A stretch of DNA of 64,000 nt. It comes from Tilletiopsis washingtonensis (Eukaryota > Basidiomycota > Exobasidiomycetes > Entylomatales). The stretch lies in NCBI RefSeq assembly GCF_003144115.1, contig NW_020312010.1, positions 380,428 through 444,427 of the forward strand. Direction: 5' to 3'. The translations under genes were made by a program, and so were the position numbers. This document shows positions 14,139-50,168 of this stretch, piece after piece (position 1 is the first letter of the stretch; every line of letters begins with the position of its first letter). The notes under the pieces are model-generated. The model saw only the letters and a program-made list of their open reading frames with translations. It ran no database searches and was not told the DNA's origin.

Positions 14139-16675
14139 ATGTCCTACATCCCCCGCGCCGCAGCGCGCGAGGCCGATCCCGACCCCGACGAGCTCGAGCT
14201 GCTGAGCTACGACGAAGAGAGCGCCAAGGATGTCATTCTCTTCCTCATCGACGCCGGCGCGCGCATGCACGACACGCTCGTGCCCGCGGCGGCGGCCGAG
14301 CAGACGGGCATGCGCATCAAGCGCGAGGGCGAGGCGCAGGGCGCACAGGTCAGCTTGCTGCACCGCGCGCTCGAGGGAGCGGTCAGCTTGATGCGCCAGA
14401 AGCTCGTCGCCAGCCCGCGCGACCTCGTCGGCGTCATGCTGTACAACACGGTGAGTGCCTGGACAGCGACGCTGTGGGGTGAACGGCGCCGCTGCACACG
14501 CTTGCTTGCTCTGGCCATGAGAGAGGCAGTGCCACGCCCTGATGTCTCTCTCGCCTCGGTGTCAGCCCCTCCACTGCTCCCGCTGATGCCCGCATACCCC
14601 CGCAGCAAGAGACGAACATGGCGCAGATCGGCAAGACGAGCATGTACGAGCACACGTACATGCTCGAGCCCATCGGCATGATCGACATTGCCAACCTTGC
14701 AGGCATCATCGACGATCTGGACCGTGCGTCGGCGTGGCGAGCTGCAAGCCGTGCGTGGCGCGCCGCCTTGGCTTACCTTCTCCCCGCCGCGGCTACGCAG
14801 TCTCGCGCGACGACCCGACGCACTTGCGCACGCGCTTTGAGCCACTCGACTCGGAGATGCGCATCCACCATGCATGGAGCAATGCGCTTAATGCCATCAA
14901 GCAGACGTGAGTCGTCGCCCCCCCCCCCCTTCTCGAGGCCCCTCAGAGGCTGACTCTTCACCCAGCGGCAAGACGGGCAGCAAGCGCATCTTCTTCGTCA
15001 CACACACCGACGACCCGTACGCGGGCAAGGCCAACGTGGCGGGCGTAAGGCGACACCTGGAGGAGCGCGTGGCGCAGTATGCGGCGCGCGGCATTGAGTT
15101 TGAGCCGTTCTTGCTCGAGACGGACGAGCGGGCGTTTGACGTGTCGCGCTTCTGGGGCGTGAGTTGCGAGCAGCCAGCCGACAGCCCCCGAGACTGACAG
15201 TGCTCGCATCCCAGCCCATCTTCGCAGCAGCGCACGCAGATGGCTTTGCTTCGGCGTCGTCGCGCGCCTCGACGCCCGCCGACGGCTCCTTCAATGGCGC
15301 GCGGCCCTTGCGCATCGACGAGCTCGACGCACACGTGGCACAGCGACACACGCCTAAGCGCGTCAACTTCCGCGGGCCCCTCAAGTTTGGCAAAGGCTGC
15401 ACGATTGGCGTCAAGGGGTATGTTCCATATCGAGGCCGTGCACGGCGTCGCACCTTTGCTTATGTGGGACGGGGATAGATACGGCCTCGTCAAGAAGGCG
15501 GAGAAGGGCAACCCGACCAAGGTCATTCCCGACACGGCGGCGGCAGAGGCCGATGGCGGACCGACGTCGTACCTCGAGGTCGACACGCGCACCGAGCAGA
15601 TCTGCGTGGTGCGTCAGGGCCAGGCCGGAGCTCATTGCAGCGCATGTCGCTGACACGTCTCTTAGGACACGGGCAAGCCGTTGGGCCCCAACGACGTGGA
15701 GCAGGCCTTCTTCTTCGGCAGCGATGCGTCGCTGCGCTCCAAGGTCAAGTTTGGGCGCGAGGAGATTGCGCGTCTCAAGTCGTTTGGGCAGAAGCCTGGC
15801 ATCGAGGTGCTGGGCTTCAAGCCCAACGCCCTTGCGGTGCGCGACAACATCAAGACGGCCTACTTTCTCTACCCCTTCGACGACATCTGGAAGAACTCGC
15901 GTCGCTGCTTTGCCGCGCTCATCGCCTCGATGCTGAAGCGCCACGTGATGGGCATTGCCATCTTCATGCGCGTGCAGGGCAACCAGCCCGTCTTTTGCGC
16001 GCTGCTGCCGCAGGCCGAAGAGCGCGAGCGCGGCATTCCGGCGGGCATGCACCTCATTCCCCTGCCGTACGCAGACGACATTCGCGAGGCGCCAGCAAAG
16101 CACGCGGCGCAGCTCGAGGCGAACAGCAAGCAGGTCGAGGCGGCCAAGCTCATCGTAAAGGCGTATGCAAAGACGGGAGAGTTTCGGCCGGAAGACTTTC
16201 CGAATCCGGCGCTGGCGCACCACTACGAGGTGCTCATCAACACGGCGCTCGGCAAGCCGCTGGGCGCAGAGGAGCTGGTGGATCGCACGCTGCCGAACTA
16301 TGCGGGCATCCAGAAGGTGCGCGTGTGCAAGAGAGAGAGAGAGAGAGCGGAACGCAGCTGTCCTGACGCATTTCCTTCTTCCAGCGCGTCGGACCACGCA
16401 TCGCCCAATGGAGCGACTTCATCGCCGGCGACGAGCGCCTTCTCCTTTCTGGCGGCGGCGCTGGCAAGAGTGGCGGCGGCGCATCGTTTGGCACGAAAGA
16501 CGCCGCTGCGCTGCTGGAGCGCCACTCGCGCGCCGAGGTGAGCAAGCTGAAGGTCGACGAGCTCAAGGCTGCGCTGGAGTACTACCGCCTGAGCAAGACG
16601 GGCAAGAAGGCCGAGCTGGTGGAACGGCTGGAGGACCATCTGGACGGCTTGGAGAAGAAGATGAAGAAGGGCTGA
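14139..16675 (+). CDS. KU70: Ku70, non-homologous end-joining subunit
   Basis: Eight exons: 14139..14450, 14606..14723, 14801..14906, 14966..15158, 15215..15417, 15479..15608, 15666..16316 and 16385..16675; 667 residues. The N-terminal vWA-like domain begins at KDVILFLIDAGARMHD and continues through RIFFVTHTDDPYAG. The Ku core beta-barrel includes VKKAEKG, IEVLGFKPN and YFLYPFDDIWKNSR, followed by MGIAIFMR and the C-terminal arm. The last ~40 residues are a SAP DNA-binding domain (VSKLKVDELKAALEYYRLS ... KAELVERL). Ku70 pairs with Ku80 to bind DNA ends, recruit ligase IV and protect telomeres. Intron 3 (14907..14965) holds a long poly-C run, a likely sequencing trouble spot. Length and domain order are typical. 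Confidence 0.96.
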
Positions 16676-19000: not shown

Positions 19001-20710
19001 GTCTGTGCTTGATGCGAGGCCGGGGGTGGATGTGGACGAGAGGCGGAGAGAAAGAGAGGCACTGGCCTGGCTCGCTGTTGTGGATGCTGGACGCTGGATG
19101 GACGGATGTGGCAGTCAAGTGCGGAGAAGCGACATCTGCTGTGCTGCTGGCTGAGCAGGAGAGAGGCGCGTCGACGGGGGACAAGGCGGTGCGTGCGCCC
19201 AGCACAGCCGCGTCACGGCGAGGTCTTGGCGCTCCAGATCGCCGGCGGTGCGCGTGGTGGGAGCGCCAGCCACATCGTCGTCGTCGCCCACAGCCTCAGC
19301 TGAAAGGACGGGCTGCTTTGCTGCAACGCTGAGAGACGACAACTCTTCAACCTCAGACGGTCAAGAGCATCCGTCTGCTCTGAGGCGAAGCAGCGGACGT
19401 CCGCGTTTGAGGGAACAGCGGTACGCCCAGGGCAGCGAGATATGAGCTCCGCCGAGCCGTGCGCTGCCCGGCAGATCGGCTCAAGCCGCTGCTGCCGCTG
19501 GGCGAGAGGAGGCCCTCCTCAAGGCCATGAGGGGTGTCTTTTGAGCACGCACATCTCAATTTCTGGGAGCATTCTTATTGTCACAGGCAGCTGAGAATAG
19601 ACGTAGGTGACGCTCCCACCTAGGTGACGCTCCCACCTAGGTGACGCTCCCACCTAGGTGACGCTCCCGTCCCAACAGAGAGGCACCGGACCCCGATGGC
19701 GGCCGCTGCGCGCGCGGCGTGTTCTATCGAAGAACGTCTCCCGCGCCCCCGTTCTGACGCGCTGCTGCCTTTGTCTGCCACTCCTCTTTCGAGAGAGGAG
19801 AGCTTCACCGCGCCTCCTGCGAGGACGTCTTGGGCAAGAGGTCCGGCGTGAAGACTGCACAGGAGATGAGGGTCTGCTGCGGTCGAAGAGCACCTGTGCA
19901 GCGACGAAGGCGGCACAGCATCGGCGTCAGGGGCAGGTAGCGCAACGGACGGGCGGCGGGCGCGCCTGTGCCTCGCCTGCGCGGCCGACCGCTCGCCGTC
20001 GCAGCGCCGCAGCACAGAGCTCGGCGGTGGCCAGGCTGGCGTGGGTCTCAGCACCTCGTGTGCACGCTCAGGCCTCGCCAGCTGGGCGCTGATCGACACG
20101 CGAGAACGAGGCGCGGCTGAGCATGATGAAGCGGCGGTCCCGGCGCCATCTCGTGAGGGAGCGTGGCGCGGCTCGGCGTCGGCGTGTTGCTTGTGCTGCC
20201 GCTGCCCGCCTGCCTGTGCCTGCTGCCCGCTCGTTCGGCGAAGGTGCGCGTTGTGCGTTCTGGCGCAGCGCGGAGCGGCTGCATCTCGCAGAGGGGCGCC
20301 GTGCCGCTTGAAGTTGGCTGCGCTGCTGCCGTCGCGCGCCGCCGCTGCCGCGCGCGCCTCGCAGGCAAACAGCGCCTGTCTCGCGGTAGCTGCGCTGCTG
20401 CCTGCTGCTCCTCCATCGCACCCGCCGGCTCTGCTCCATCTCCCTCTCCCCTCTTTCCACCCTTACCTCTCGTCTCGCGCGTGGCTGCGGAACGCTGGCT
20501 CTCTCTTCGCCGACGCGCCTGCACCTCTCCTCTCGCCGCTGCCGCACGTCACACTCCTCACCCCTCACGAGTCACGACCTCCCTCCCTCCCGCCCATCCC
20601 GCTCCGCACCAAGTGCGACGAGCCACCCGCCGCCCGCATAGACCGCTCTCTGCATCTCTTCGCCGCATCCGCACATCCTTCCTCGCCGGCGTCTCGGCCC
20701 AGCAGGCACC
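19001..20710. other. Divergent intergenic region, 1.7 kb
   Basis: Lies between divergent starts of the CYSTM gene and the Rax2 gene. It holds a 17-bp tandem repeat (listed separately) and pyrimidine-rich sequence before the Rax2 ATG (20420-20700). Minus-strand frames at 19115-19342, 19353-19559 and 19620-20099 are open. One (residues around GDDDDVAGAPTTRTAGDLE) has a balanced composition, but I could not join them into a gene or find a domain. Confidence 0.3.
19604..19671. repeat. 17-bp tandem repeat, about four copies
   Basis: The unit TAGGTGACGCTCCCACC is repeated head to tail at 19604-19620, 19621-19637 and 19638-19654, with a partial fourth copy to 19671. The first three copies are identical. 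The junctions create the palindrome CCACCTAGGTG. It is a short minisatellite in the intergenic region upstream of the Rax2 gene. Confidence 0.95.
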
Positions 20711-23700
20711 ATGCGTGCCTCGTCGTCGCTCGCGCGCGCCGCCGTGCTGCTCTCGGCAGCCAGCGTCGTCGCCGCAGCCGACTTCCCTTACATCGACTTT
20801 GAGGGACTCGGGCAGGTGGCCATCTCGGGCAGCTTCCAGGGCGTGCAGGTGTGGAACCAAAACGTGTCGACGCTGAGCAGCACGGGCGCGTTCAGCGCCG
20901 ATGCTGGCTCGCTCCTTACGCTTGCGCCCAGCGGCCAGCTGGCCAAGGTGGGCGCGACGGGCGAGGGCGGGGCGATCCGCGCCATCTGCCAGCGCAGCGA
21001 CGGCGTCAACGGCACCGTCTTCGTCGGCGGCACGTTTGAGACGATCAACGGCAGCGCCGTGAGCAACATTGCCGCGTACGACCCGGCGTCGCGCTCCTGG
21101 AGCGACCTGGCCGGCGGCCTCGACGGCGCCGTCGAGGCGCTGTACTGCGACGAGGAGCACGGCACGCTCATCGCCGGCGGCTCCTTTGTGCGGCCGCGCT
21201 CGCCGCCGGCCGAGGAGGCGGAGCGCTTCCTCGGCGGCGTGGCCAGCTGGTCGTACGCTGCAGGCAGCTGGAGTCCCGTCGTGTTCGGCGGCGTCAACGG
21301 CACCGTCGACACGATCACGGCCGGCTCCAACTCGTCCAACATCCGCCTGCTCGGCGCCTTTGAGATGCAGTTCTCCTCGGCCGCCGGCACGAACATGTCC
21401 ACCTCGGGCACCAACACGTCGGCGTCGAGCCTCACAATTGCCATGGCGCCGCTGCCGCTGGGGCAGAGCGAGTTCCAGGGCGGGCCCGTGTCGTCGAACC
21501 GCGACTATGCCAACCCAGCGCAGATCCTCTGTCCGCGCGGCGACGACGGCCCCAACAACACGTTCCTCTTTGCCGACAATGCGCCGGGCCGCCTGACGCT
21601 GCGCACCTTCCGCAGCCTCTCTGCGCGCGCGCTGCGCCTCGCAAACACCTTCGTCGACGGCCGCGGCACGCGCACGTTTAGCGTCGTCTCGATTCCCGAC
21701 AACCAGGTGCTGACGATGGTGTACGTCGATCCCGCGACGCAGCAGAACGTGACGTGCAGCGACGCGTGCACGCTGGCGCACGACGCAAACATTCCGTACC
21801 AGGACTTTGTCTTTGCCGACCTGCCCGAGAGCGGCGCGCAGTCGGGCGTGCGCGAGCTGACGGGCATCCAGCTGACCGTGTCGGAGTGGTACGGCGCCGG
21901 CGCGGGCCTGCACAGTCTCTCGCTCCTCTCCGAGGGCGCCTTTGCCTACGCCTACGGCGGCTACAACCGCGGCCGCTGCAGCTCTGAGCAGCCGGGCGTC
22001 AACTCGACCGACTCGACGACGACGAGCGAGGGCGGCTGGTACCAGACCAACACGGTCATCGGCGGCGCCTCGGCGCCCGTGCTGGCGTACCAGGACAGCT
22101 ACAGCAACCTCGCGCAGGCCGCCTCGTCGGTCAGTCTGCGCTGGGACGTCGATGCACACTACAATGGCAACTACTCGGCCTACCTCTACGTGCCCGGCTG
22201 CACGGCCGCGGGCCAGTGCGGCCAGCGCACCGACGTCCTCGTCACCACCATCGCCCAGGCCAACGTCGCCGGCAGCGAGATCCGCGTCAGCCAGGCCGTC
22301 GAGGACGACACGCGCGTGCTCGTCTACTCCGGCCCCGTCGACCGCACCTCGGACACCTTCAAGCCTAGCATCACGCTCAGCATCCCGCAGGACGCGGCAG
22401 CGCCGACGCGCGGCGACAACTTCATCGTCGTGGCGGACAAGGTGTCGCTGTACCTGCGCTCCAGTCCCGATCTCTTCCAGATGGTGCAGGCGCGCGGCTT
22501 TGGCATGCTCGAGTACAACGTGTTCGATGTGGCGGGCATGCCGCTCGAGAACGGCACGCAGGTGCTGTCCAACAACTCCCTCAACGCCTTCTCCAACTTT
22601 GGCTCCACGCTCGTCGCCAACGGCGTGAACCGCACGCAGGGCCACACGCTCAGCAGCGCCGCGAGCCTGCTGGCCACGACGTTTGTCGGCGGCAACTTCA
22701 GCAGCCGCACGACGGACATCGCACAGGAGGGCTTTGCCAATCTCGTCAGCTTCGCCGACGCCAGCGGCGGCTCCAACTACACGCGCCTGGCCGGCGGCGG
22801 CCTCAACGGACCCGTGTCGAGCCTCGTGGCCATCGACGAGCGTCTCTTTGTCGGCGGCAACTTCAGCGCCACGGCCGACGGCTCGACGCTACTGAGCAAT
22901 TTGGCAGAGTACGACGTGCGCGCCAACACGTGGAAGCCAATCAGCGGCGCGCCGGACGGTGCCGTTCTGACGCTCGCCGCCTTCCGCAACTCGTCGCTCC
23001 TCGTCACGGGCGCGTTTGAGTCGCGCAACAATGGCGCAGACAGCGCGGCGGGCTATGCGGTGTGGGACACGACGTCCGACGCGTGGGTGCCGCAGGATGG
23101 CCTGCTGATCGGCAGCATCGACTCGGTCAGCGCGCCCAACTCGGCCGACGGCCTGACGTACATGGCGGGCGCCGTCTCCGGCCTGAGCACGTCGAGCGCG
23201 TCGGGCGCCGCACGGCTCAATGCGCCAGAGGAGGAGGGCGGTGCACCGACCATCGAGGCGCTCAACTACTCCTTCCGGCGGCAGGACCAGGCAGCATCAG
23301 CTATGCCCGCGGCACCCGAGGGCCTGCTGGCGCTGCGTGCCTCGGCGCGCCGGCTGGCAGGGCGCGTCATCTCGGGCGAGGAGGAGCAGTCGCGCCGCCG
23401 CGTGCACTCCAGCCGTGCGCTCATCTCGAGCGGCAGTCTCTCGGGCCGCTCCAGCGGCGGTCTGACGCGCTGGCTCTCTTCTGCGCTCCTCTCGCGCAGC
23501 GACGAGCAGGCTGTCGGTGCGCGCACCAGCCTGACGCGCCGCGCCGACGCCATGGAGCCGCCGAGCCTGGCGAGCAACGGCGACGAGGATGTGCTGGCGT
23601 CGGCCTTCTGGCAGCGCGGCGACGACGACTTTGTCTTTGTCGTCGGCGGCAACTTCACCACGAGCGAGGGCATCGTGAATCTCGGCTGGTACGACTACAA

Positions 23701-25434
23701 GACGAGCCAGCTTAACCGCTTCCCGCAACTGCCTGCCTCGTCGAACCTCACCGTCATCCGTGCCCTCTACGTCGACGGCAACCAGCTCTACGCGGGCGGC
23801 GATGGCGGCCTGCAGATGTTTGACTTTGGCTCGATGGCCTGGCTCTCGGACGCCGCGACACTGAGCGTGGAGGGCGGCGCCACGGTGCTGAGTGTCTCGG
23901 ACATTGACCACCGGCCCGACTCGTCGACGATGATCGTGGCAGGCACGTTTGACAACGCCGGCAGCCTGCCGTGCGCCAACATCTGTGCCTGGGACACGCA
24001 GACGCGCCGCTGGAGCCAGCTGGGCGCCGGCGTGCGCGACGGCCAGATCTCGGCCATTGACTTTGGCGGCGTGAGTGCGGCAGCGGAGTGACGATGTGAT
24101 CGTGTGCTGACCCTTCTTGTGCAGAGCAAGGCGGGCACCGTCGTCGTCGCCGGCTCGATGACGATCAACGGCGCAGAGGCCTCGCTGGCCACGTACGACC
24201 TTGAGCGGCAGGTGTGGACGGCGCTCGGCTCCGTCGGCTCGGGCGATGGGCAGGTGCCTGGTCCAGCGACGGCGCTTTCCGTCGACGACCTCAACCTGAA
24301 CTCGATCTTTGTCGGCGGACGCACCACAGACGGCCAGCAGCCGTACCTGGCAAAGTGGAACGGCCAGAGCTTCCTTACGCTGGCGCCCGACGAGCTGCTC
24401 TCCGAGACGGGCATCGCGCAGCTCTCGTTCGTCGGCATCACGCGCGCCCACCCCTCTAACGACGTGCTCGAGAACAACCGGCTGCTGGTCGTCTCGGGCG
24501 CGCTCAACATGCGCGACTTTGGCAACGTCTCGACGGCGCTCTACGACGGCAACTCCTGGACGCCCTTCCTCATTGCCACGGCGTACGGCGGCGGCCTCGG
24601 CGCCATCCGTGCCTTTACGCGCTCGACCGAGGTGCTCTCCTTCCCCAACCTGCGCCACCTGGCCGTGGGCATCGTGATTCTCATCTCGATTGCCATTGGC
24701 CTCGGCATCGTCTTCCTCCTCGTGCTCCTCGGCCTGCTCTGGGCGCTGCTGCGGCGCAAGGACCGCCGCGGCGTCGAGGTGCCCATCTCGCCCTCCGACG
24801 ACACCCTCGGCCACGCCGGCGAGAAGAAGCAGCCGGCAGAGCTGCTCGCGACGCTCAATGCGGCGACGGAGGGCGCCATGGGCGGCGGCGCCGGCCACGA
24901 GCGCGGCAGCGTCGACAATGCGCAGATGGCCGGCGTCGGTGCGGGCGCCGCCGGTGCGGGCGCCGCGGGCTTTGGCGCTGCCGCTGCCGCGGCCGCCAGC
25001 ACGAGCCACGGGCATGCCGAGTCGTCGGCGCACCACGGCGGCGGCGGCACGACGCTCGACCACAGCGACCCCAGCACGGCGTACCACTCCGAACGCACGG
25101 GCCAGACGCAGTACTACAGCGGCGACGACGGCGGCGCAGGCGGCGCAGGCGCAGGCGCGGCGGCGGTGGGCATGGCGTATGGCGGCATGGACGACGAGGA
25201 GCGCGAGGGCATCGAGGCACATGCGCGCTACTCGTTTGAGGCTACACACCCGTCCGAAGTGTCGATGCGCGCAGGCGATGTGAGTGGCATGCAGCAGTCC
25301 CGAGGCGTGTGCGCGCAGCTGACCCGTCTACGCTCCAGACCATCTTCGTGCTCGACGACGGCGACGAGTCGTGGTGGCTCATTGCCCGGTTAGACGGCCA
25401 GACGGGCGTCGTGCCGGCCACGTACGTGCTGTAA
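20711..25434 (+). CDS. RAX2: Rax2-type cell-polarity membrane protein with C-terminal SH3 domain
   Basis: Three exons: 20711..24070, 24125..25279 and 25339..25434; 1536 residues. A signal peptide covers about residues 1-22. The ~1270-residue ectodomain has recurring beta-propeller-like motifs (FVGGTF, FVGGNF, LVTGAF, IVAGTF) and many N-x-S/T sites, as in Rax2 cortical markers that mark bud and growth sites and anchor Rax1. A membrane span lies at about 1300-1326 (VGIVILISIAIGLGIVFLLV), followed by RRKDRRG. The cytoplasmic tail is Gly/Ala-rich. The last ~50 residues form an SH3 domain (ARYSFEATHPSEVSMRAGD, FVLDDGDESWWL, GQTGVVPATYVL) split by the last intron. The SH3 domain is not part of the yeast protein and suggests direct coupling to a Pro-rich polarity effector. 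Confidence 0.9.
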
Positions 25435-37172: not shown

Positions 37173-40100
37173 ATGTCGGCGCCCTACAGCGCGCACCACC
37201 AGGTGCCCACCATCGAAAAGTTCCGGCAGGAGGAGGAGGCGCGCGAGCGTGCCGCCGCCGCGAATGACTCGCGCATTGCGCAGAGCGCCGACGAGGAGAA
37301 GGTCGGCGGCGCAGGCGCGGCGCCGGCACTGCAGGGCGCCGACCCGACACAGCAGGGCGAGGGCCTGCGCCAGCGCCGCGGGGCCGGCGACGCGCCGGGC
37401 GTGCCGCCCAAGGACGACGGCGACATGGCCGCCGGCCAGGCCGCCGGCGGCGGCGCGGCCGAGAAGGAGCGCCTGAAGAAGGCCGCGCAGCCGCAGGAGG
37501 GCAAGCCGACGGACTTCCAGGCCAAGGGCCGCCGCCGCGTCACCGACCCCACGACGAGCGGCGACGTCGAGATCGAGGACCAGGTGCCGCGCGACATTCC
37601 CGTCGACGTGCTCGAGAGCAAGAAGCCCGGCGGCTTCTCCTCCAAGCCGCCCAAGCTCGCCGAGAACTACAAGGCCTTCTTCACCGGCCCGTCGCCCGCC
37701 GAGCCGACCAACATCCTGCTGCAGCCGTTCCCGGCGCCCATCGACACCGACGCCTTTGCACGGCTGGAGGGCAACTTCCGCAACCTGGGCGTCGCGCTGG
37801 CCGCCGCGCTCGCCGTCGTGTGGTTCTTCACTGCCTTTGGCGCCGGCTACTTCCGCTTCGTGCTGCGCACGGGCATCCTCGTCGGCGTGGGCATCGGCGG
37901 TGCCTCGGCACTGGGCCTCTCGGCGCGCAAGATCGAGAAGGACCTCGAGGCGGTGCGCGCGCAGATGCACGAGCAGCGCGGCAAGGCTCACTCGCTGAGC
38001 GACACGCCGCTGCCGGAGAGGTGAGTGCAGCCGAGAAGATTCAGTTTAGCAGCGGGTACGCGGGCGTCGTCATCGTCGGAGCATGACCGGCGCTGCACTT
38101 CTCGCCATCGACGCGTCGAGGTACCTCCGCTGACCCCTCTCTTGCACCCATTCTCTCTCCCTTTCCTCTCCGTTCTCCGCCTCACTGCCTCCGTCCCTCC
38201 CTCACCAGTGTCGAGTGGCTGAATGCGCTCATCGCCACCGTCTGGAAGCAGATCTCGCCCGACATGTTCCTCGCGGTGAGTTTTGGCCTTCAGAAGCACC
38301 CAGTCCTCTCCCTTCTCCCAAAGACCTCCCTTCTGAGTCTCTCTACCCGACAGGCTGCGGACATGATAGAGGACACGATGCAAAGTTTGTTGTTTCTCAC
38401 TGAATAGACATCGTCCTGCCACTAATACGTCCTCTCCTCTCCAGTGAGCCTGCCTGGATTCATCTCGGCGGTCAAGGTCAGCGACCTCACGCACGGCCAC
38501 CCCGACTCGGCCCTGCGCCTCACGCACTTCCGCGGCCTCGCCGACAAGCCGAGCGACCCCAACTACCCTCAAGAGGAGTGGATAGATCAAGGGAGGCGAT
38601 CGGAGCTCAAGCCTGAGGAGAAGCCGGGTGCGATGGCGAAGAAGGATGACGGCAAGTCGGCCGGCGACGCTGACGGCGATGGCGTGGCCGACGAGGACGA
38701 GTCCGGCGTGAGTCTTCTACTCGATCCAGCTCCGCGCCGCTTGAACTGACGCTGCCCATCCTTTCTCCTTCCTCTGCAGTCGTTCCTCAACCTTGAGGTC
38801 GGTGAGTCTTCATCTGCGCAGGGTCTTGCCGGCCGCAGGCAGCTGATACCTTCCCTCTCTAGGCTTCGTCCTCATGAAGCGTCCCGGTCAGAAGACCAAG
38901 GCGGCGTCGCTGATGATCAGCTTCTTCATGGGCGCGTACGACCTCTTCCGCTTCCCTTTCAACGTCTGGGCCGAGATCACGGGCCTCAGCGGCACGGCGC
39001 GCCTGCGCGTCCAGTGAGTGGTACTGCGCGCCTGGGTCCTCCGTGCGATGCTGACCCTCCTCAGGTTCGTCGAGGCTGCGCCGTACGTGCGCAACGTGAC
39101 GATCACCATGATGGGCGTGCCCGACGTGCACGTCAACGTCGTGCCCATGGCACGGGCGCTGCCCAACGTGCTCGACCTGCCGCTCATCTCCGGCTTCGTC
39201 AAGAGCTCGATCGCGGCGGCGCTCAACGAGTACGTGGCGCCGAAGAGCATGACGCTCAACGTCGCCGACATGATCTCGGGCGCGCCGCCGGGCAAGGACG
39301 TCAACGCCATCGGCGTGCTTGTCGTGCACATCCAGCGCGGCATCGACCTCAGCGCGCAGGACGCCAGCGGCTCGAGCGACCCGTACGTCGTCATTTCGCT
39401 GGCCAAGTTCGGCAAGCCGCTGTACAGCAGCCGCATCATCTTCGAGGACCTCAACCCCAACTGGAACGAGTACGCCTTCGTGCCGATCACCAAGGACGAC
39501 CTCGCCAACGACGAGGTGCTCTCCGTGCAGCTGTGGGACTCGGACAAGCGCACCGCCGACGACATTGTCGGCCGCATCTCGCGCAACGTCGGCGAGCTGA
39601 CCAAGGGCGAGACGCGCAACAAGATGGTCGAGTACCGCGACGAGCTCAAGGGCTTTGAGGACGCAGACAAGATGCAGGGTGCGTGGTGTGTGCCGGCCAC
39701 GTGCGCCAGTGGCTGACCCTCCCCTCAGGCGCGCTCAAGTGGCGCTGCGGCTTCTTCGAGAAGGCCGCGTTCAACAAGGAGCTGTACAAGAAGGCCAAGC
39801 AGGCGCGTCGCGACGCCATGGAGGAGGCCGAGCGCAAGACCGCCGAGCAGGCCGAGGAGATGGCCAAGAAGCAGGGCACCGAGGAGGAGATCTCGGCGCT
39901 CAACTGCCCGCCCGAGGAGCGCTACCCGTCGGGCATCCTCTCGGTGACCCTGCACCACTGCATCGGCCTCGAGACGCGCGAGGTCGAGAAGGGCGTCAGC
40001 GGCAAGGAGCGCGAGCGCGGCTCGTCGGGCCAGGACGTCGAGGAGAAGGACCTCGAGCAGAACCTGCCCTCGGGCTACGCCGAGCTCGTGTACGGCGACT

Positions 40101-41227
40101 CGATTGTGTACCGCACGCGTGCCAAGATGTTCTCCAACTTCCCAATCGTGAGTGCTGGTGCAGGCCTAGCTGTGCGGCAGTGCTGACCCTGTCCACAGTG
40201 GGAGGCGCAGCACGAGGCCTTTGTGCGCGACTGGCGCTCGACGCCCGTGCGCATCGTCGTGCGCGACAGCCGCGTGCGCGAAAACGACCCGGTGCTCGGC
40301 ATCTGCGACATTTCGCTGCCCGACATTCTCACCGAGTCGAGCTCGGTGACGCGCTACTTTGCGCTGCAGGACGGCGTCGGCTACGGCAAGGTGCAGGCGA
40401 CGGTCTGCTGGCGCTCCATCACGCTGCAGGACGACATTCCCAAGTCGCTCCTCGGCGCCGACACGGCGACCGTCGAGCTGCTGAGCGCCATCACGCTCGA
40501 CGTGCAGGGCGAGCACGAGAGCCTGCGCAACGAGAAGATCAGCGTTACCACGGGCGACGTGACGCAGAAGCTGAGCGCGGTGACGAAGCAGGAGGGCCTC
40601 GAGCTCGGCGACGACGAGCAGGACAATGGCTTCCTCACGCGCCTGCCCGTCTACGACCGCCACTCGTCGACGCTGAGCTTCAGCTTCGGCGGCCAGGGCC
40701 TGCTCGGCGGCAAGGTCGAGGCCGTCGCCGTCGTGTCGCTGCTCGAGCTCGCGGACGGCGAGATTGTCGATCTCTCGGTGCCGCTGCTCGCCGGCAAGAA
40801 GCTCGGCACGCTCGCGCGCAACCACATCGACGAGGAGACGGCCAAGACGCACGAGTTCCAGGAGATCGGCACGCTGCACGTCAAGCTGCGCGTCGACCCG
40901 GGCCTCGACGCGGACCATGCTGCGCTGGCCAAGGGCCAGACGCGCCGCCACGAGTTCGAGGTCTTTGACCGCCTGGTCGGCATGCCCGAGGCGGCAGAGA
41001 AGAACGCGCACGCCGACGACGACGGCGTCATCGACCGCAAGGAGCGCAAGGCGATCAACGAGGCCAAGACCAAGGCACTGCACTCGCGCCACCGCGGCAG
41101 CTACGGCTACGCGCCCGTGCGCACGGGCGCGTGGGCCAAGCAGGGCATGCGCGACAGGGTGCGCAAGCTCAGCATGAAGCTCACGGGCAAGAAGAGCAAC
41201 GAGCGCGAGGTGGCCTCGGAGGCCTAG
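37173..41227 (+). CDS. Tricalbin / extended-synaptotagmin-like SMP-C2 protein
   Basis: Nine exons: 37173..38020, 38209..38275, 38354..38384, 38445..38707, 38780..38801, 38863..39013, 39065..39678, 39729..40147 and 40199..41227; 1147 residues. An N-terminal charged region of ~200 residues is followed by a membrane hairpin at about 205-245 (VALAAALAVVWFFTAFGAGY, GILVGVGIGGASALGL). The SMP lipid-transfer domain follows (VEWLNALIATVWKQISPDMF, PGFISAVKVSDL, FRFPFNVWAEITG). A C2 domain sits at about 543-640 (VLVVHIQRGIDLSAQD, SSDPYVVISLAKFG, NPNWNEYAF). A second, less canonical C2 lies at about 733-850. Such proteins tether the ER to the plasma membrane and move lipids. One exon is only 22 nt. The Ca-binding Asp pattern in the first C2 looks largely kept. 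Confidence 0.9.
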
Positions 41228-41721
41228 CGACGGCAAAGACCACGACGACCGCGCGTCATCCTTTCCCTCTCCTCCCTTTCTTGTACGCTTTCCGCACGAC
41301 AGTGAAGACAATTGACGACACGTACCGCTCGCATCGCAACGCTTGGCTTGCATGAGAGAGAGCGAGAAGAGCAGAGGCAGGTAGAAGAGAGAGAGAGGGC
41401 GCGAGTAACGAGCACGCGACGCTGAGACGTGCCCGCTCCCTGGGTCGCGAAGTCATCACGCCGTTATGTGCTCAAGGAACGGCGTTGCTCGGTACGGGTC
41501 TGGCCGGAGCTGGGACATGGTCTGCGGCCCGGCACGGGTGCGCGACAAGTGTGAGGGTCAAGTATGCGGAACATGTGTGTGACGGGCGGAACAGGTGAGG
41601 ACGGACGAGGATGCGCTAGCGAGCTCCTAGTCGAGAGGGCTCGAGGCTTGCGGCTCCTTCTGGACGTGCACATCAGCAACGGCGCACCGCACGGCCTCTG
41701 TTGGCACTCACCAGTCGCGCA
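41228..41721. other. Intergenic between convergent genes
   Basis: A 494-base gap between the SMP/C2 stop and the 3' end of coiled-coil gene A. It contains GA-rich sequence near 41350-41400. The part nearest gene A (41640-41721) resembles the sequence just downstream of gene B (43740-43827), so the duplication may extend past the stops. Confidence 0.4.
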
Positions 41722-42855
41722 TCAGGCGCGCTTCTTGAAGTCGGGCTTGCGGCCGCTGTAGGGACGCTTGACGCCGCTGAACGTCGGAGAGGTCAGCGGT
41801 CGTCCAGATGCATGCTGTGAGCACCACAGCAGCTCACCGGCTGGCCTCAGCGGGACCCTTCTGCTTGTCCTCGCCCGTGCTGACGCGCGGCTTCTTCGAG
41901 CTGTCAGCCGCAGGGTCGCGGCTGGGGGCTGTTGCACTAGCGTCAGAGGCCGAGTGACGCGGCTCGGTTCTCATGCTGGACGTACAACGGGCAAACGCGC
42001 TCTGGCTAGAGGAGGCAGGCATCGCCTCGACGGCGGGCGCGGGGTCGCGCTCGCGCTTCTTGATGAGGCCGACGCCAGAGCCTGGGTGGAGGAGAAATGA
42101 GTGGCATGCGCTCGAAGCTTGCATACACGCCCTCTGGACTCACCGGCGCCGCCGGGAGCAGCCTTAGGCTTCTTCTGGACGGCGGAGGCCTCGACCATGA
42201 CCAGCGCCTTCGCCTTGGGCTCCTCGCCGTCCGACTCGTTCTCCTCGGTGCCCATCTCCTCACCGAGCTTCTGGAGTTCGTCCTCGGCCGCCTGGTCATC
42301 GTCCTCGTCACTGGCGGCGCCGTTGGCTGATGACAACGTGGCGACTCAGCGATGCACGCAGGCAGCATGCAAACAGAGACGACTCACCGAGCTGCTGCTT
42401 CTTCGCCTCGTCGGCAAGGCAGGCGGGGCACTGGCCGCAGTCGCCGTCCTGGCTGCTCTCCTCGTCGTCGTCATCATCGTCGCTATCGCTGGGCAGCTCG
42501 TCGAGGCCGGTGACCTTGGTGAAGAGCTCGTCGAGCGCCTTCTGCTTGAGCTCCTTGGCCGTCTGCGCGATGGTGCGGAAGGCGAGACGCTTGCGCTCGT
42601 CGAGCATGCCCTTCTCTTCCTCGAGCATGCGCTTATCCTCCTTGAGGAAGCTCATCTCCACGTCGACGCGCTCCTGGCGGTCGGCGATGATCTCCTCGAG
42701 GTCGCGGATCGTGGAGAGCGAGTCATCGTACTCGTCGCGCGCAAGGCCGCTGACGTACATGGCCTGCTTCTCGAGACGCTGAAGACGGCGCGGCTCAGCT
42801 GCTGCTGCAAGCTAAGCGGCACGGTGCAGCTCACCTTCTCAGCAGAGCGAGGCAT
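41722..42855 (-). CDS. Acidic coiled-coil protein, tandem gene A
   Basis: Five exons: 42855..42835 (only MPRSAEK), 42778..42388, 42326..42144, 42081..41838 and 41776..41722; 297 residues. Exon 2 encodes a long helical coiled coil (YDDSLSTIRDLEEIIADRQE, FLKEDKRMLEEEKGMLDERK, FRTIAQTAKELKQKALDELF) followed by a run of Asp/Glu and a CGQCPAC motif. Exons 3-4 are acidic, then Lys/Ser-rich. The last exon gives GVKRPYSGRKPDFKKRA. I recognise no family. Gene B at 43828-45303 has the same layout: a tiny first exon, a coiled-coil exon, an acidic stretch, and a last exon of exactly 55 nt ending in an RPxSG...RA tail. The promoters also align. This is a tandem duplicate of a family of unknown function; the charged tails suggest nuclear location. 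Confidence 0.8.
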
Positions 42856-43213
42856 CTTGAGGGACTCGAAGGCGGTGATGTGCGGTGTGAGAGTTGCTGG
42901 GAGAAGAGAAGGCGCGAGCGAGGTGTGCAGCGAGCGGGAGTGCGGTGGGAAGTGGTGGTGGAGAGGCAGGGCGGGCACGGGTGCGGGGCCTTCATAAGCT
43001 GCTCGCTCGCTGCTGCGCTGGCACGGGCTCGTTCTGCTACGCCGAGCCCCCACCGGGCTCGCCGAGAGCAGCCGGCCGCCTGTGTCGCAGCACCACGCTC
43101 TGCCGCTGCTGCCGTGCCGAGCCTCGCGACGTCGTCATCGCTCGCGGTGCACCTGCCCGACTCGGCGCGGCGGCAGCAGCGCAGAGCGGCAGCGGCTCGA
43201 GAGTGCACGGCGT

Positions 43214-43338
43214 CGCCCCTGTGGCGGCCCGCGGCTGCTCTAAGTGCCGCGATAGTGCCTGATTTGGACGAGCGTCGCGCGACAACACAGCGCACGTGAG
43301 GCATGAGCGACGCGCGACGCGTCAAGAGGCCCCCTGAC
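43214..43338. repeat. Duplicated promoter block, copy upstream of gene A
   Basis: This ~125-base block aligns with 45675-45801. Shared stretches include GGCTGCTCTAAG, TGCCTGATTTGGACGAGC, GCGCACGTGAGG and GACGCGCGACGCGTC, in the same order and orientation relative to the downstream gene. Both copies contain a CACGTG box. Confidence 0.9.
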
Positions 43339-43638
43339 TGCGACAGCGGCGGCTTTGGTCCAGCGAGTGGGACGCTGGCTATCTCTGCGCCATTGTATGA
43401 AGAGCAGACAATGCTTGAGAGACGACTTTGAGCTGGTCTCGGTGATGGTGGCCCTTGAACGTATGCATCCGCCGTGCTCAACGGCGTCAAAAGCGAGCAC
43501 GCCGAGGCGTCGTGCGCGCGCAGCTGAGCTCGCAGCTTTTTGCTTCTGCCCTCATTCTCCTGACACTGCTCGGCCGACCTCTCATCATGCCTCTCACATG
43601 ATAGACGCTGTCACTTCTCGCTTCACACGCAAAGAGGG

Positions 43639-43697
43639 TCAAGTGCGGGACATGGTACGGATCAGTCAAGTGCGGGCCGGGACATGGTACGGATCAG
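43639..43697. repeat. Short direct repeat, two copies
   Basis: TCAAGTGCGGG followed by GGGACATGGTACGGATCAG occurs twice head to tail (43639-43665 and 43666-43697). The second copy has five extra bases. Confidence 0.9.
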
Positions 43698-43827
43698 TGG
43701 TGGCGGGAAGAAGGATGCGCTGCCGAGCTCCAGTGGATAGCGGGCTCGAAGCTTGCGATCACTGCTGGCGCTGGAAGTTAGCAGCAGCGCATAGCACGTC
43801 ATCCGTCGGCACTCACTGGAGAGCGCA

Positions 43828-45303
43828 TCAGGCGCGGCGCTGGTACTCGCGGTTGCTGCTGCCGCTAGGACGCTGGGCGCTGCTGAAGACGAAACACATC
43901 AGCGAAAGTGCACGCTCGCAGAAGCACCATGACTCACCGGCTGCCCTCGGCATGGGCCTCGGGCTGCGCAGCCTCGGCACGGTCGAGGAAGGCGTTGCCC
44001 GCCTTGCTGGCGCGAGGCTTCTGCTTGGGCGCCGCGCGGCCGGCGATCTTGCGCACAGGGGCGCCCAGCTCTGTGGTCGCAGATGGTCAGCTCAGCGCAG
44101 GGTGTCAGGTAGGGACTGGGGATGCTGGACGCACTGGCAGCCGCGAGGGCAGGACCCTGGAGGCCGCGAGTGCCACCGCTCTTCTCGGCGCCCGCATCGC
44201 GCTCGGACGTCTTGCTACCGGCAGCGCCATCGTCGTCGCCCTTTCTAGTGGGAGGGCGCTGGCCGGTGATCTGGAAGAACGCTTCTTCAAGGTAGCCACG
44301 CTTGAGCTCCTTGGCGATGTCAGTGACGGAGCGGGACGCCTGACGCTTGAGCTCGGGGAGTCCTCCCTTCAGCTTCTCCAGGCCCTCCTGCATGTCCTCG
44401 ATGGCGATCAGCGCGCTCTCGTACTTGGCGCGCGCGCGAAGGCTGACGGCCTCGGCCTGCACCATGACGGTCTGGTGCGGCGGGTTGTTTGAGAGTTGGC
44501 AAATGCTCATCGCCCCCGTCTGACTCACCTCACTAGGCGAGAGGCGGGGTGCGTTGGCTGTGCTCGAGGCCTGCGCGCGAGAGCGAGGGCGGCGGCCACG
44601 TGCCTGCTCGTCGGCCGACTCAGCCGGGGCGTCGTACTCCATGCCGGACAGAGTAGGGCCTGGACGGAAGTGTCAGAGTAATCACGCAGACGAGCAGCTG
44701 GAACACGGAGAAGCTGACGAGACTCACTCGCAGAGCGAGACTCAGACTGCTCGGCGGCGCTGCCGTCTCCGCTCAGCTCCATCTCCTCGTCCGAATCATC
44801 CTCGGCTGCGGCTGGGCTCGTGTAAGCAATGCACGTATGCGCCGGTGAGGCAAAACATACACGTCTCCTCGTCAGATGCCTCTCTCGAGAAGCTTTCGTA
44901 GTCGTCCTCTTCCTCCGGAAGCTCAGTGAAGATGGCCTTGAATGCTGCCTTCAGGGCCGCAGGGTCGTCCGAGCCGGCGCGGTCGCGGATCTCCTGCATT
45001 TGAGCCGCCATGTTCTCGGCGTCGTTGACCATCTTGTTGGCGATGTCGTCAAGGGTGCGGCGCGACAGGCTCTTGAGGGTGCGGCCGTTGCGCTCAAGGA
45101 ACGCCAGCTCTTCCTGAAGCTTGGTGATCTGCGTCTGCACAGCGTCGATCTCGAGCTTGTTCTCCTGATACTCGGCGCGTACAGAGAGGCTGAAGACCTT
45201 GGCCTCGCGGTAATCGCGCTGCGCAGGAGTGACTGGCGTCAGCTCGCTGTCACAGAGGGCGGGAGCAGGGCGACTCGGGACTTACGGGACCGGGCTCGGG
45301 CAT
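43828..45303 (-). CDS. Acidic coiled-coil protein with doubled unit, tandem gene B
   Basis: Seven exons: 45303..45286 (MPEPGP), 45218..44863, 44816..44728, 44659..44529, 44471..44135, 44070..43938 and 43882..43828; 372 residues. Two coiled-coil units are present. Unit 1 (exon 2) has KVFSLSVRAEYQENKLEID, QITKLQEELAFLERN, RTLDDIANKM and IFTELPEEEDD. Unit 2 (exon 5) has AVSLRARAKYESALIAIEDM, LKRQASRSVTDIAKELKRG and AFFQITG. Unit 2 resembles gene A at the same points (RTIAQTAKELKQKALDELFTKVTG is split between its two halves there). An acidic Ser-rich linker (AEDDSDEEMELSGDGS) joins the units. The end, SAQRPSGSSNREYQRRA, matches gene A's tail and 55-nt exon. The second intron is short (46 nt). Family and function unknown; probably a scaffold or chromatin-associated protein by composition only. 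Confidence 0.78.
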
Positions 45304-46539
45304 GACGCTTAGCTGGTGGATTGCTGGGCGGGATGTGAGAGCGAGGGCGGCCGACGCGAGGAGATGCAGTGGACGCAGGTGCGGTGGAGGGTGGTGGTGG
45401 AGAGGCAAGGCGAGCGAGCGAGGGCCCGGGGGACTTCATAAGCTGCTCGCTGGCGCTGTTACGCTCTCAGCTCGCCACAGCAGAGCGTCGAGCATCGCGC
45501 TACGCAGGCCGCCAGTAAGAGTGTGCCAGCTTGCTGCTCTGCTGCTGCGGGCGTGCTCGAGGCCCAAGACGCCGTCAGCGCGCGCTGTGCGCCTGCCCGA
45601 CTCGGTGTTGCGGCGCAGCAGCACAGCGGCTCGAGGCACTGCAGCCGCAGCCGAGGGAGGAGCTGCTAAGGCTTTGCCCCTGTGGCGCTGCATGCTGCGC
45701 GGCTGCTCTAAGCGACCGCGATGTGCCTGATTTGGACGAGCAGCGCGCCAAACACCGGCGCACGTGAGGCCGACGCGCGACGCGTCCAGGAGGCCCCTGA
45801 CGGCGACGGCAGCCGCCTCAGGCCGCCGTGGAGTGGCGGACTGCCGCACGAGGGGATGACTGATGCCTTCTTGAGCGGTCCACGCTGAGCTGTTGCTCGA
45901 TGAGGGCTGACCGGCGTGATTTGCAAGGCAGTCAGCCCTGGCACGCTATCGCTCGGGGTGCCCAGAGCGTCAAAAACTAAGACATCGCCGCGCGCGCGGC
46001 GGGGCAGGCGCACGGCGGTGCGGTCACGCGGCTCCTCGCCTCGTTCTCCTCTTCCTCCCGGCTGCCGGCCGCGCAATGACGGCCGAACGCCCGCTTCGCT
46101 TGGCCTTCCTCACCGAGAAGCGAGCTGATACATGGCGCTTCGAACAGAAGAGGAGCGGTGTGCAGTCGCGAGTGTGCGCCTTGTCTCTGCGCGCGATGCC
46201 CACGCATGCAAACTGCTCCCACGCGCTCAGCGGCGATCTTCACGCTCCGCGCCTGCCCTGCAGCGGGTGCGGGTGACAGGTGGAGGGCTGCGACCCTTCC
46301 TGCGCCTCGAGAGCTCGGGTCACGCGGACGAGCCCTTCTCTGCCTCGCCCAGCAGGCAGGCAGCTTCACACACGCGACAGCAAGGCAGCCAGATCACAGC
46401 ACAGAAGCGGCAGGGAGGTATTCAATGCTTTGTATTATCGTCTACGTGAGGTGGCAGGTGCTCATTGATTCTGCTCGTGCTGCGCCGCGTGCTTTGGACG
46501 ATGCCGACGCGCCGAGTTGGACGCGAGTGAGCGACGACC
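45304..46539 (-). promoter_or_regulatory. Promoter region of gene B and unassigned spacer
   Basis: About 1.2 kb. The half nearest gene B carries the second copy of the duplicated promoter, including ACTTCATAAGCTGCTCGCT near 45432-45450 and CACGTG at 45761-45766. From 45830 to 46539 several unconvincing frames are open on both strands and I see nothing I can support. Confidence 0.45.
45675..45801. repeat. Duplicated promoter block, copy upstream of gene B
   Basis: This is the partner of 43214-43338, with the same order of shared words and the same CACGTG box. With the TTCATAAGCTGCTCGCT element nearer each ATG, it shows that the duplication included several hundred bases of upstream sequence. 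Confidence 0.9.
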
Positions 46540-46897
46540 TTAGACGGTCGGCTGCTGCACCGGCGCGGGGCCCTCCGAGCCGGGGCCGCCGGTCGTGGCG
46601 TCGTGCTCTGAGGAAAGAAAAGAGAGTCAGCACAAGGTCGACAGCGGCTGATGGTGAAGCAGCGCGACCACGGGCAATTGATGCGGGCTGAACGCCTGGC
46701 GCCCGTGCATCTTCTCCCTCCTCATTGCCTTTCCAAGATGATCAAGACGCAGCCCACTCACGCTCGACGCTCTTGTCCGGGATGCTCTCGCGGCCAGCAG
46801 CGCCGGGGATCTGCGGCTCGCCAGCGGCGGCGCGCTTCTCGTTCTCGGCGATGCGCGCCGCCTCGGGCTTGGCCGTCTCGTTGAAGGTGGTCTGCAT
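46540..46897 (-). CDS. Small conserved-looking hydrophilic protein, 67 residues
   Basis: Two exons, 46897..46762 and 46607..46540, in phase across a 154-nt intron (GTGAGT...CTTTCCTCAG); 67 residues. The product is hydrophilic: MQTTFNETAKPEAARIAENE, then GEPQIPGAAGRESIPDKSVE, then a Gly/Pro/Gln-rich tail ending VQQPTV. There is no signal peptide, membrane span or Cys. Clean splice signals, a pyrimidine-rich acceptor and a balanced composition support a real gene. I recognise no family. It is divergent from the RAD10 gene across ~330 bp, so the two could share regulation. Confidence 0.6.
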
Positions 46898-47226
46898 GGT
46901 TGAGAGTTTGAGGGGTGGTTGGGTGAAAGAGAGTGATGTGTGGGTGGTGGTCGGGAAGAAGGAGGAGCGGCTCGGTTGATCTTCAAGTGGGGCTGGCGGA
47001 CCCACACCTCGGCTGGGCTCGAAGGCAGCACAAGCACGAGGAAGGCGAAGGGTGCCGGCCTCGATATCCCGCGGCAAGACAGGAGGCGCTGATGTCACTG
47101 TGCGGTGCGCGCGCGTCACGTGTGAGCATCTGGACCCCAGAATAGCCGCGCTCGCCTCCACTCCCGACCACCACCACCTCGAAGCTCGACCATCCTCAGC
47201 ATCCCGCAGTCTCTGTGCCAGGCAGC
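46898..47226. promoter_or_regulatory. Divergent promoter between the 67-residue gene and RAD10
   Basis: A 329-base gap. It includes CACGTGTG around 47118. No gene is seen. Confidence 0.35.
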
Positions 47227-48923: not shown

Positions 48924-49856
48924 TCAGAAGTTCCACTGCTCTTGATACGGCATGCGGTCCGGCGCGATGCCGCGGCTGTGGAAGTAGAGCTGGATGAGGT
49001 GCGGGCAGTGCACGTTCTCGGCCGGATTCCACAGGTCTGGAGCACAGCGCGGTCAGCCTGTGGTGGCACGAGACTACTCGACTCTACTGTGCGAGCACTC
49101 ACCGAAGGCGCCGCAGTGGCCCAGCGGATAGCCCTGCCACTTGATGGCGAAGAACAGCCGGCCGTGCTGCACCATGTGGTCCACCACCTCGTCGACCTCC
49201 CACTCGCCGTCATTGATGGCCTTGGGCCGCGAGCGGCACACGCCGTAGCAGCGCTCGAGCGAGTCGTACGCGCGAGGCGGCTGCTGCTGCTGCTGTTGCT
49301 GGCGCAGGTGCGGCTTGACGTCTTCGCCGTCGTCATCCGGGACGATCCAGATGGCGTGCGGCGGTGGCACCTCGATGACTTCCTCGCGCAGGCGCTGTCG
49401 ATCACGCGCCGCTCTCTCTCTGCGCCGTCGACGCCGCTCCAGCACGCGCCGCTGCTGCTCCTCGAGTCGACGCGCTTGCTCGCGCGCCTTGAGCAGCTGC
49501 TGCTGCCTCAGCCGCTCGGCTCGCAACGTGTGGCGCTCGGCGCGTGAGAGCTCCAGCGCGGCAAGATCGTCCACTAGACTGCCAACGGCGCCGGCTTGAG
49601 GCGCAGCGAGCTCGGGAGACTCGGATCGCACCTCGTGGATCTCCGGCGAAGGCTCGCGTACCTCGGGCGCCGGGGCAGGAGAGACTGGCCGCTCAGGCTG
49701 CACAGCAGCGGCTGGCACTGGCGCTGGCGCCGCGACTTCCTGCGCGGGACGCCTGAAGCGCACGACGTGCTTGAAGCGTATGCGGCCCTTGCTGTCGGCG
49801 CGACGCAAGATGGAGACGGGGCCGCTGCTAGATGAATGTGCGTCGAGACTCGGCAT
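48924..49856 (-). CDS. Chromodomain protein with SILK/RVxF-like N-terminal motifs
   Basis: Two exons, 49856..49103 and 49036..48924; 288 residues. The C-terminal chromodomain spans about 218-275: EWEVDEVVDHMVQHGRLFFA, IKWQGYP, LWNPAENVHC and LIQLYFHSRG. It keeps the aromatic positions used to bind methyl-lysine (Trp219, Trp near 240, Trp254). A long Arg/Gln-rich coiled coil precedes it (ERHTLRAERLRQQQLLKARE, RRRRRRERAARDRQRLREE). The N-terminus has SILR (15-18) and RIRF (25-28), the order and spacing of the SILK and RVxF docking motifs for protein phosphatase 1. The middle is Pro/Glu-rich. It is not a standard HP1 or Suv39, since there is no chromoshadow or SET domain. The gene is only 59 bp from RAD10 in convergent orientation. 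Confidence 0.82.
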
Positions 49857-50168
49857 GGCTGTGGCTGCAGGAAGGCGAGGGAGAAGCGGTGAGGGAGGTG
49901 AGACGAGATGATGAGCACGCGCTCGCAACGCTGACGAGATGATGAGGCGGCGGCGCGGCGCGGCGCGCGGCGTGGAGGTAAAGCTGCAACTGATGAGATT
50001 TGAATGGACGGAAGTGCTGTGAGAGAGCCGCGATCACATATCGTACAGACCCAGGACCGGAACGAGAAAGGGCATTCGAGCAGCGGCCACGCATCGTGCC
50101 GTGGTGCCGTGCCGTGGCCAGGAGGCCGCCCGCAGACGTGCGACACGGACGTGCGCTGACCAGGCCAA
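49857..50168 (-). other. Intergenic, promoter of the chromodomain gene
   Basis: A 312-base gap between NSA2's 3' end and the chromodomain ATG. No ORF or recognised site is supported. Confidence 0.3.

Follow-up and report, generated by a model that had tools for sequence, protein, structure and literature searches.

Genes A and B of Tilletiopsis washingtonensis, apparent ancient tandem duplicates encoding acidic long-helix proteins

Two neighbouring genes, here called A and B, in the window (the whole analysed stretch of 64,000 nt, C13:380428-444427 of an 18.7-Mb genome in 32 contigs) appear to be ancient tandem duplicates derived from a single gene whose product was an acidic long-helix protein. 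Sequence comparison shows an origin by tandem duplication that included the promoter and the 3' end, with two copies of the helix unit, B1 and B2, in gene B. An earlier note had described a tandem pair in which one gene holds a doubled unit; this was confirmed, and the anatomy is extended here to the flanks. Two features are newly noticed: as judged from the aligned DNA, the duplication spans the promoter and the 3' end, which the earlier note did not contain, and sequence conservation is higher in the flanks than in the bodies of the genes.

Organization of the two genes

The two genes follow one another head to tail on the minus strand. Gene A (42855-41722) was predicted to consist of five exons with a spliced product of 297 aa, the length previously claimed, and gene B (45303-43828) of seven exons encoding 371 aa in the chosen exon chain (Table 1). 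The claim of two units in gene B held, with a length slightly different from the 372 aa given earlier, for which exon borders were not stated. Exon borders were set by choosing GT..AG ends, giving ten coding introns of 49-68 nt; because the ends were picked in this way, they are no independent test of the models. A branch-like motif, CTRA(C/T/G), was found in 7 of the 10 introns. Exon phases matched between the genes, and the units A, B1, and B2 all started at a phase-0 border with a conserved Tyr as residue 17, which for B2 depends on the acceptor chosen. That acceptor, of B exon 5, was picked so that 17 residues run through the shared Tyr (inclusive), as in A and B1; an alternative 15 nt downstream is likewise in frame.

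The last exons comprised 55 nt to the stop in both genes and an acidic run followed the first helix in each, as had been claimed. Net charge over residues 101-150 was -17 in A and -20 in B, and the tails of both were positive. The SSKKPRV motif in exon 4 of A resembles a nuclear localisation signal.

Table 1. Positions of predicted and shared features of genes A and B in the window.
Feature	Position	Strand	Basis or remark
Gene A exon 1 (MPRSAEK)	42835..42855	-	
Gene A exon 2: long-helix unit, acidic run, one CGQCPAC motif	42388..42778	-	splicing, AlphaFold
Gene A exon 3, acidic	42144..42326	-	
Gene A exon 4, low complexity, contains SSKKPRV	41838..42081	-	
Gene A last exon to stop, 55 nt, basic tail GVKRPYSGRKPDFKKRA	41722..41776	-	
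Gene B exon 1 (MPEPGP)	45286..45303	-	
Gene B exon 2: helix unit B1	44861..45218	-	unit alignment, AlphaFold
Gene B exon 3, acidic	44728..44811	-	
Gene B exon 4, linker	44529..44659	-	
Gene B exon 5: helix unit B2, acceptor fitted to other units	44135..44471	-	unit alignment
Gene B exon 6, basic low complexity	43938..44070	-	
Gene B last exon to stop, 55 nt, tail SAQRPSGSSNREYQRRA	43828..43882	-	
Tandem repeat of 21 nt (one heptad) within the helix of A, unit residues 45-61, 2.4 copies	42596..42646	-	
Promoter/5' flank of A, homologous to that of B	42856..43353	-	
Promoter/5' flank of B	45304..45815	-	
3' flank of A	41608..41721	-	81% to that of B
3' flank of B	43712..43827	-	
Probable 3'UTR intron of A, 52 nt	41660..41711	-	
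Probable 3'UTR intron of B, 52 nt; acceptor 6 nt earlier possible	43765..43816	-	
16-nt block GACGCGTCGCGCGTCG, contains ACGCGT	43308..43323, also 45771-45786	-	shared promoter block
14-nt block TCCAAATCAGGCAC	43255..43268, also 45723-45736	-	shared promoter block

The surroundings of the pair contained several recognizable genes. A Mug190-like gene (38426-41227, +) is convergent with gene A; its SMP, C2, and third Mug190 C2 domains scored over the cut-off at 39018-41224, and a weaker SMP match lay upstream. A Rax2-like gene (20642-25390, +) gave a C-terminal domain match across two same-frame stretches split by a stop at 24089-24091, most simply read as a short intron. Ku70/80 beta-barrel and C-terminal arm domains (15666-16538, +) and a Not3 Pfam match were also found, as was an ORF (49077-50033, -) with a chromodomain match below the cut-off (E 0.00068, 20 bits vs 25.1). 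Together with the short introns, the Mug190-like, Rax2, Not3, and Ku matches point to a fungal genome.

Relationship of the helix units

The units were compared by BLOSUM62 local scores against 2000 shuffles and 2000 heptad-preserving shuffles. The A-B2 score of 101 (shuffle mean 29.6, sd 5.5) was reached by 0/2000 shuffles of either kind, and the B1-B2 score of 59 by 0/2000 and, with heptads preserved, 1/2000. The A-B1 score of 46 was not significant, being reached by 119/2000 and 141/2000 shuffles, respectively. Of the earlier claim that both B units align with A, the part concerning B2 stood and the part concerning B1 was weak; because the full-unit A-B1 score is weak, A is tied to B1 mainly via B2. 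Over the first 30 residues, compared ungapped with 20,000 shuffles, p was 0.0058 for A-B1 and 0.00025 for B1-B2, and 0/20,000 shuffles reached A-B2. Identity to the A unit in a MAFFT alignment was 26% for B1 and 39% for B2. Taken together, A and B have the marks of tandem duplicates: they lie in direct orientation, and their coding units, flanks, and exon layout are homologous.

Conservation of flanks and gene bodies

The upstream flanks of A and B were 84% identical over 430 aligned nt with gaps set aside (70% with gaps), scoring 263 against a mean of 27.0 and a maximum of 41 in 200 shuffles. The 3' flanks were 81% identical over 101 aligned nt (score 75; maximum of 200 shuffles, 25). BLASTN identities, counted with gaps, were 338/480 upstream and 127/177 on the 3' side including the last exon. 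Downstream of the stop, GTGAGTGCC started after 10 nt in A and 11 nt in B, and CAG ended a 52-nt stretch in each; these stretches were alike at a score reached by 0/200 shuffles, pointing to a probable 3'UTR intron common to both genes.

Exact blocks shared by the flanks included GACGCGTCGCGCGTCG and GCTCGTCCAAATCAGGCAC. The 16-mer had three exact copies in the genome, two at this locus and one elsewhere. The ACGCGT-type block did not stand up as a cell-cycle signature across the genome, being rarer (25 matches with at most one mismatch) than its reversed control (47). For the 14-mer TCCAAATCAGGCAC, the exact copies among the listed genome matches were those of Table 1, and three places had one mismatch. 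In the A-B spacer, 85 nt (43555-43639) were 75% identical to C13:590414-590504, at a distance of about 166 kb on this contig.

Within the gene bodies, A exon 2 and B exon 5 were 80% identical over 104 aligned nt, above all 200 shuffles, and the last exons 75% over 52 nt (score 29; shuffle mean 15.7, maximum 26, 200 shuffles). DNA likeness beyond 200 shuffles was absent between A exon 2 and B exon 2, B exons 2 and 5, A exon 3 and B exon 3, and A exon 4 and B exon 4 or 6. None of the 24 A-B pairs of coding introns was alike, each score being reached by at least 3/200 shuffles. In the protein-guided A-B2 core (90 codons), nucleotide identity was 60%, with dS 0.60 and dN 0.57; the values were dS 0.83 and dN 0.96 for A-B1, and dS 1.07 and dN 0.73 for B1-B2. 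With dN near dS in the first pair, above it in the second, and below it in the third, constraint is hardly visible. Second codon positions were the most conserved in all three unit comparisons (0.62, 0.61, and 0.53), a weak sign of constraint at the protein level, and in A-B2 (0.61/0.62/0.56) they led only narrowly over first positions. The contrast between flanks and bodies would fit either conversion or constraint of the flanks, or fast evolution of the bodies. It would offer a test case for gene conversion versus promoter constraint.

Helix prediction and length variation

Structure prediction, which the earlier note had proposed, returned a long helix in A exon 2 and in B1. The AlphaFold2 models covered these two units and used an input alignment of three sequences. 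A exon 2 formed one helix at 2-90 (mean pLDDT 83.1, pTM 0.42; 79 of 130 residues with pLDDT of at least 90), and B1, at lower confidence, helices at 2-81 and 86-98 (mean pLDDT 74.5, pTM 0.37). Heptad periodicity on a hydrophobicity scale of our own gave p values of 0.08 (A), 0.03 (B1), and 0.23 (B2), with best periods of 3.6, 3.67, and 3.45. Of the claimed coiled coils, a long helix is predicted in A and B1, and the heptad signals were weak. A coiled coil is likely, and the weak periodicity means that a lone charged helix is possible in place of pairing.

B2 was shorter than the A unit by exactly 21 residues, aligned to A unit residues 30-50. The helix of A carries a heptad-long tandem repeat with the units SFLKEDK, RMLEEEK, and GMLDERK. 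The length difference could plausibly have come about through slippage in whole-heptad steps, with the repeat at residues 45-61 overlapping the gap only in part.

Database and genome searches

The claim that the genes belong to no recognised family held for Pfam (full-length A and B), NCBIfam (helix exons), and PDB sequences (A and a three-unit profile). At E<=10, Pfam listed two families for full-length A and eleven for B, none reaching its cut-off; HMMER filters drop most matches above about E 0.1, also from these listings. Nothing convincing was obtained from NCBIfam with the helix exons, and TrbJ was set aside (E 0.00068, yet 18.8 bits against a cut-off of 225). Spp1, the sole PDB match of A (E 1.8), was likewise set aside. 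The best PDB matches of the three-unit profile (E 5.8e-5 and 0.0014) were designed repeat proteins, followed by assorted coiled coils.

SKA2 (PF16740) matched over B1 at E 0.05 to 0.063, with 13.9 bits against a gathering score of 30.1. Membership was rejected, as B is below the cut-off and no match was listed for A or B2. In the same genome, the SKA2 model found one place below the cut-off (14 bits) on a different contig, and it gave below-cut-off matches in 2 of 14 control genomes. Shugoshin was also rejected: at E<=10, neither Shugoshin_N for the coiled coil nor Shugoshin_C for the tail was among the Pfam matches of A or B, and the three genome matches of PF07557 were all outside the locus. 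One of the Shugoshin_C matches was over the cut-off, at C1:461101-461166, and marks the likely shugoshin of this genome.

Searches with two short peptide patterns yielded 92 stretches in viral contigs and 208 in prokaryotic genomes, none of them confirmed, as expected for a fungal gene. No comparable gene pair was among the papers listed by keyword, and Rfam gave no match at gathering score over window positions 1-64000.

In the own genome, the DNA search returned four places: the locus, the two mutual flanks, and the spacer-like 85-nt stretch. The A and B2 units found each other at E of about 1e-5 to 1e-6. The B1 unit found itself and a place on C4 (E 1.21), with neither A nor B2 at E<=10. 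No third family member was seen by these DNA and unit searches, which are insensitive: since the B1 query missed B2, a diverged third member could have escaped. The tandem copy and the doubled unit in B are supported; the suggestion of a locally expanding family is weak, no third gene being seen in 18.7 Mb by these searches.

Discussion

We propose, with a probability of about 35%, that A and B are paired helical adaptors with an acidic linker and a basic tail, B being two-headed. The proteins would pair, with themselves or each other, through a coiled coil of some 80-90 residues at the N-terminus, and the acidic linker and basic C-terminal tail would contact another partner. Alike promoters would hold A and B co-expressed, and the two helix units of B would let it link two partners. 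A nuclear location of A is hinted at by SSKKPRV. The 21 residues by which B2 is shorter equal three heptads, which would fit selection for register. Participation in a rapidly evolving nuclear assembly, for instance in chromosome segregation, is a guess by general precedent.

The genes might instead belong to a known small helical family, for example as a kinetochore, spindle-pole, or BLOC-like subunit, and have diverged so strongly that they escape profile searches. We rate this as almost equally likely. Such families consist of short helical proteins, A and B have themselves diverged greatly, and B1 has its sub-threshold SKA2 match (E 0.05, 13.9 bits vs 30.1). However, full-length A and B lack any Pfam match at cut-off, the top PDB profile matches are designed repeat proteins and then assorted coiled coils, and the SKA2 model rings on another contig and in controls. 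Decaying or mispredicted genes, with partly wrong exon chains, seem unlikely. A G+C content of about 66% makes long open frames common (97 overlapping frames of at least 50 aa within 40000-47000), dN/dS is near 1, and the middle exons compared are unlike between A and B, but exon phases match, promoters, last exon, and 3'UTR intron are conserved, and the frames of A exon 2 and B1 have high GC3 with low GC2 (the B2 frame failed the filter).

That B is two separate genes, B1 and B2, is improbable to much the same degree. An in-frame ATG (MEYDAP...) does lie in B exon 4 ahead of B2; against this, the duplicated promoter precedes B1 alone, the duplicated tail follows B2 alone, and the unspliced frame of B exon 3 is open to 44525, so that an early stop for B1 is not seen. 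We consider it quite unlikely that A and B form a recognition or selfish gene pair under rapid diversification, with recombining flanks that remain alike as the coding bodies diverge. This reading would account for promoters at 84% and 3' ends at 81% beside 0/24 alike coding-intron pairs and a core dN/dS near 1, yet only two genes and no broken copies were seen in own-genome searches of limited sensitivity, and a constrained promoter could explain part of the pattern. Its fuller form, with homogenised flanks as recombination arms, diversifying bodies, and helix length in whole heptads setting partner specificity, is very improbable.

If lineage restriction holds, the locus would provide a small test case for the origin and retuning of helical adaptors, by tandem copying, doubling of a unit, and changes of length by whole heptads while the promoter is preserved.

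Among known systems, SKA2 resembles B in being helical and in matching the B1 region below threshold; it differs in that the score of B is far under the cut-off and nothing is listed for A or B2. Shugoshin has an N-terminal coiled coil and a basic C-terminal motif. It is like A and B in general layout (N-terminal helix, low-complexity middle, and short basic tail), whereas no Pfam Shugoshin model is among the matches of full-length A or B. A broader comparison is with taxonomically restricted genes. PMC5633384 puts genes without detectable relatives beyond close species at about 10-20% of the protein-coding genes of a typical eukaryote, so that an unassigned pair is not surprising by itself. 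It also describes essential taxonomically restricted genes of yeast and worm as often acting in chromosome segregation and as having more disorder. A and B resemble such genes both in having no recognised relatives in the libraries searched and in their low-complexity, probably disordered parts.
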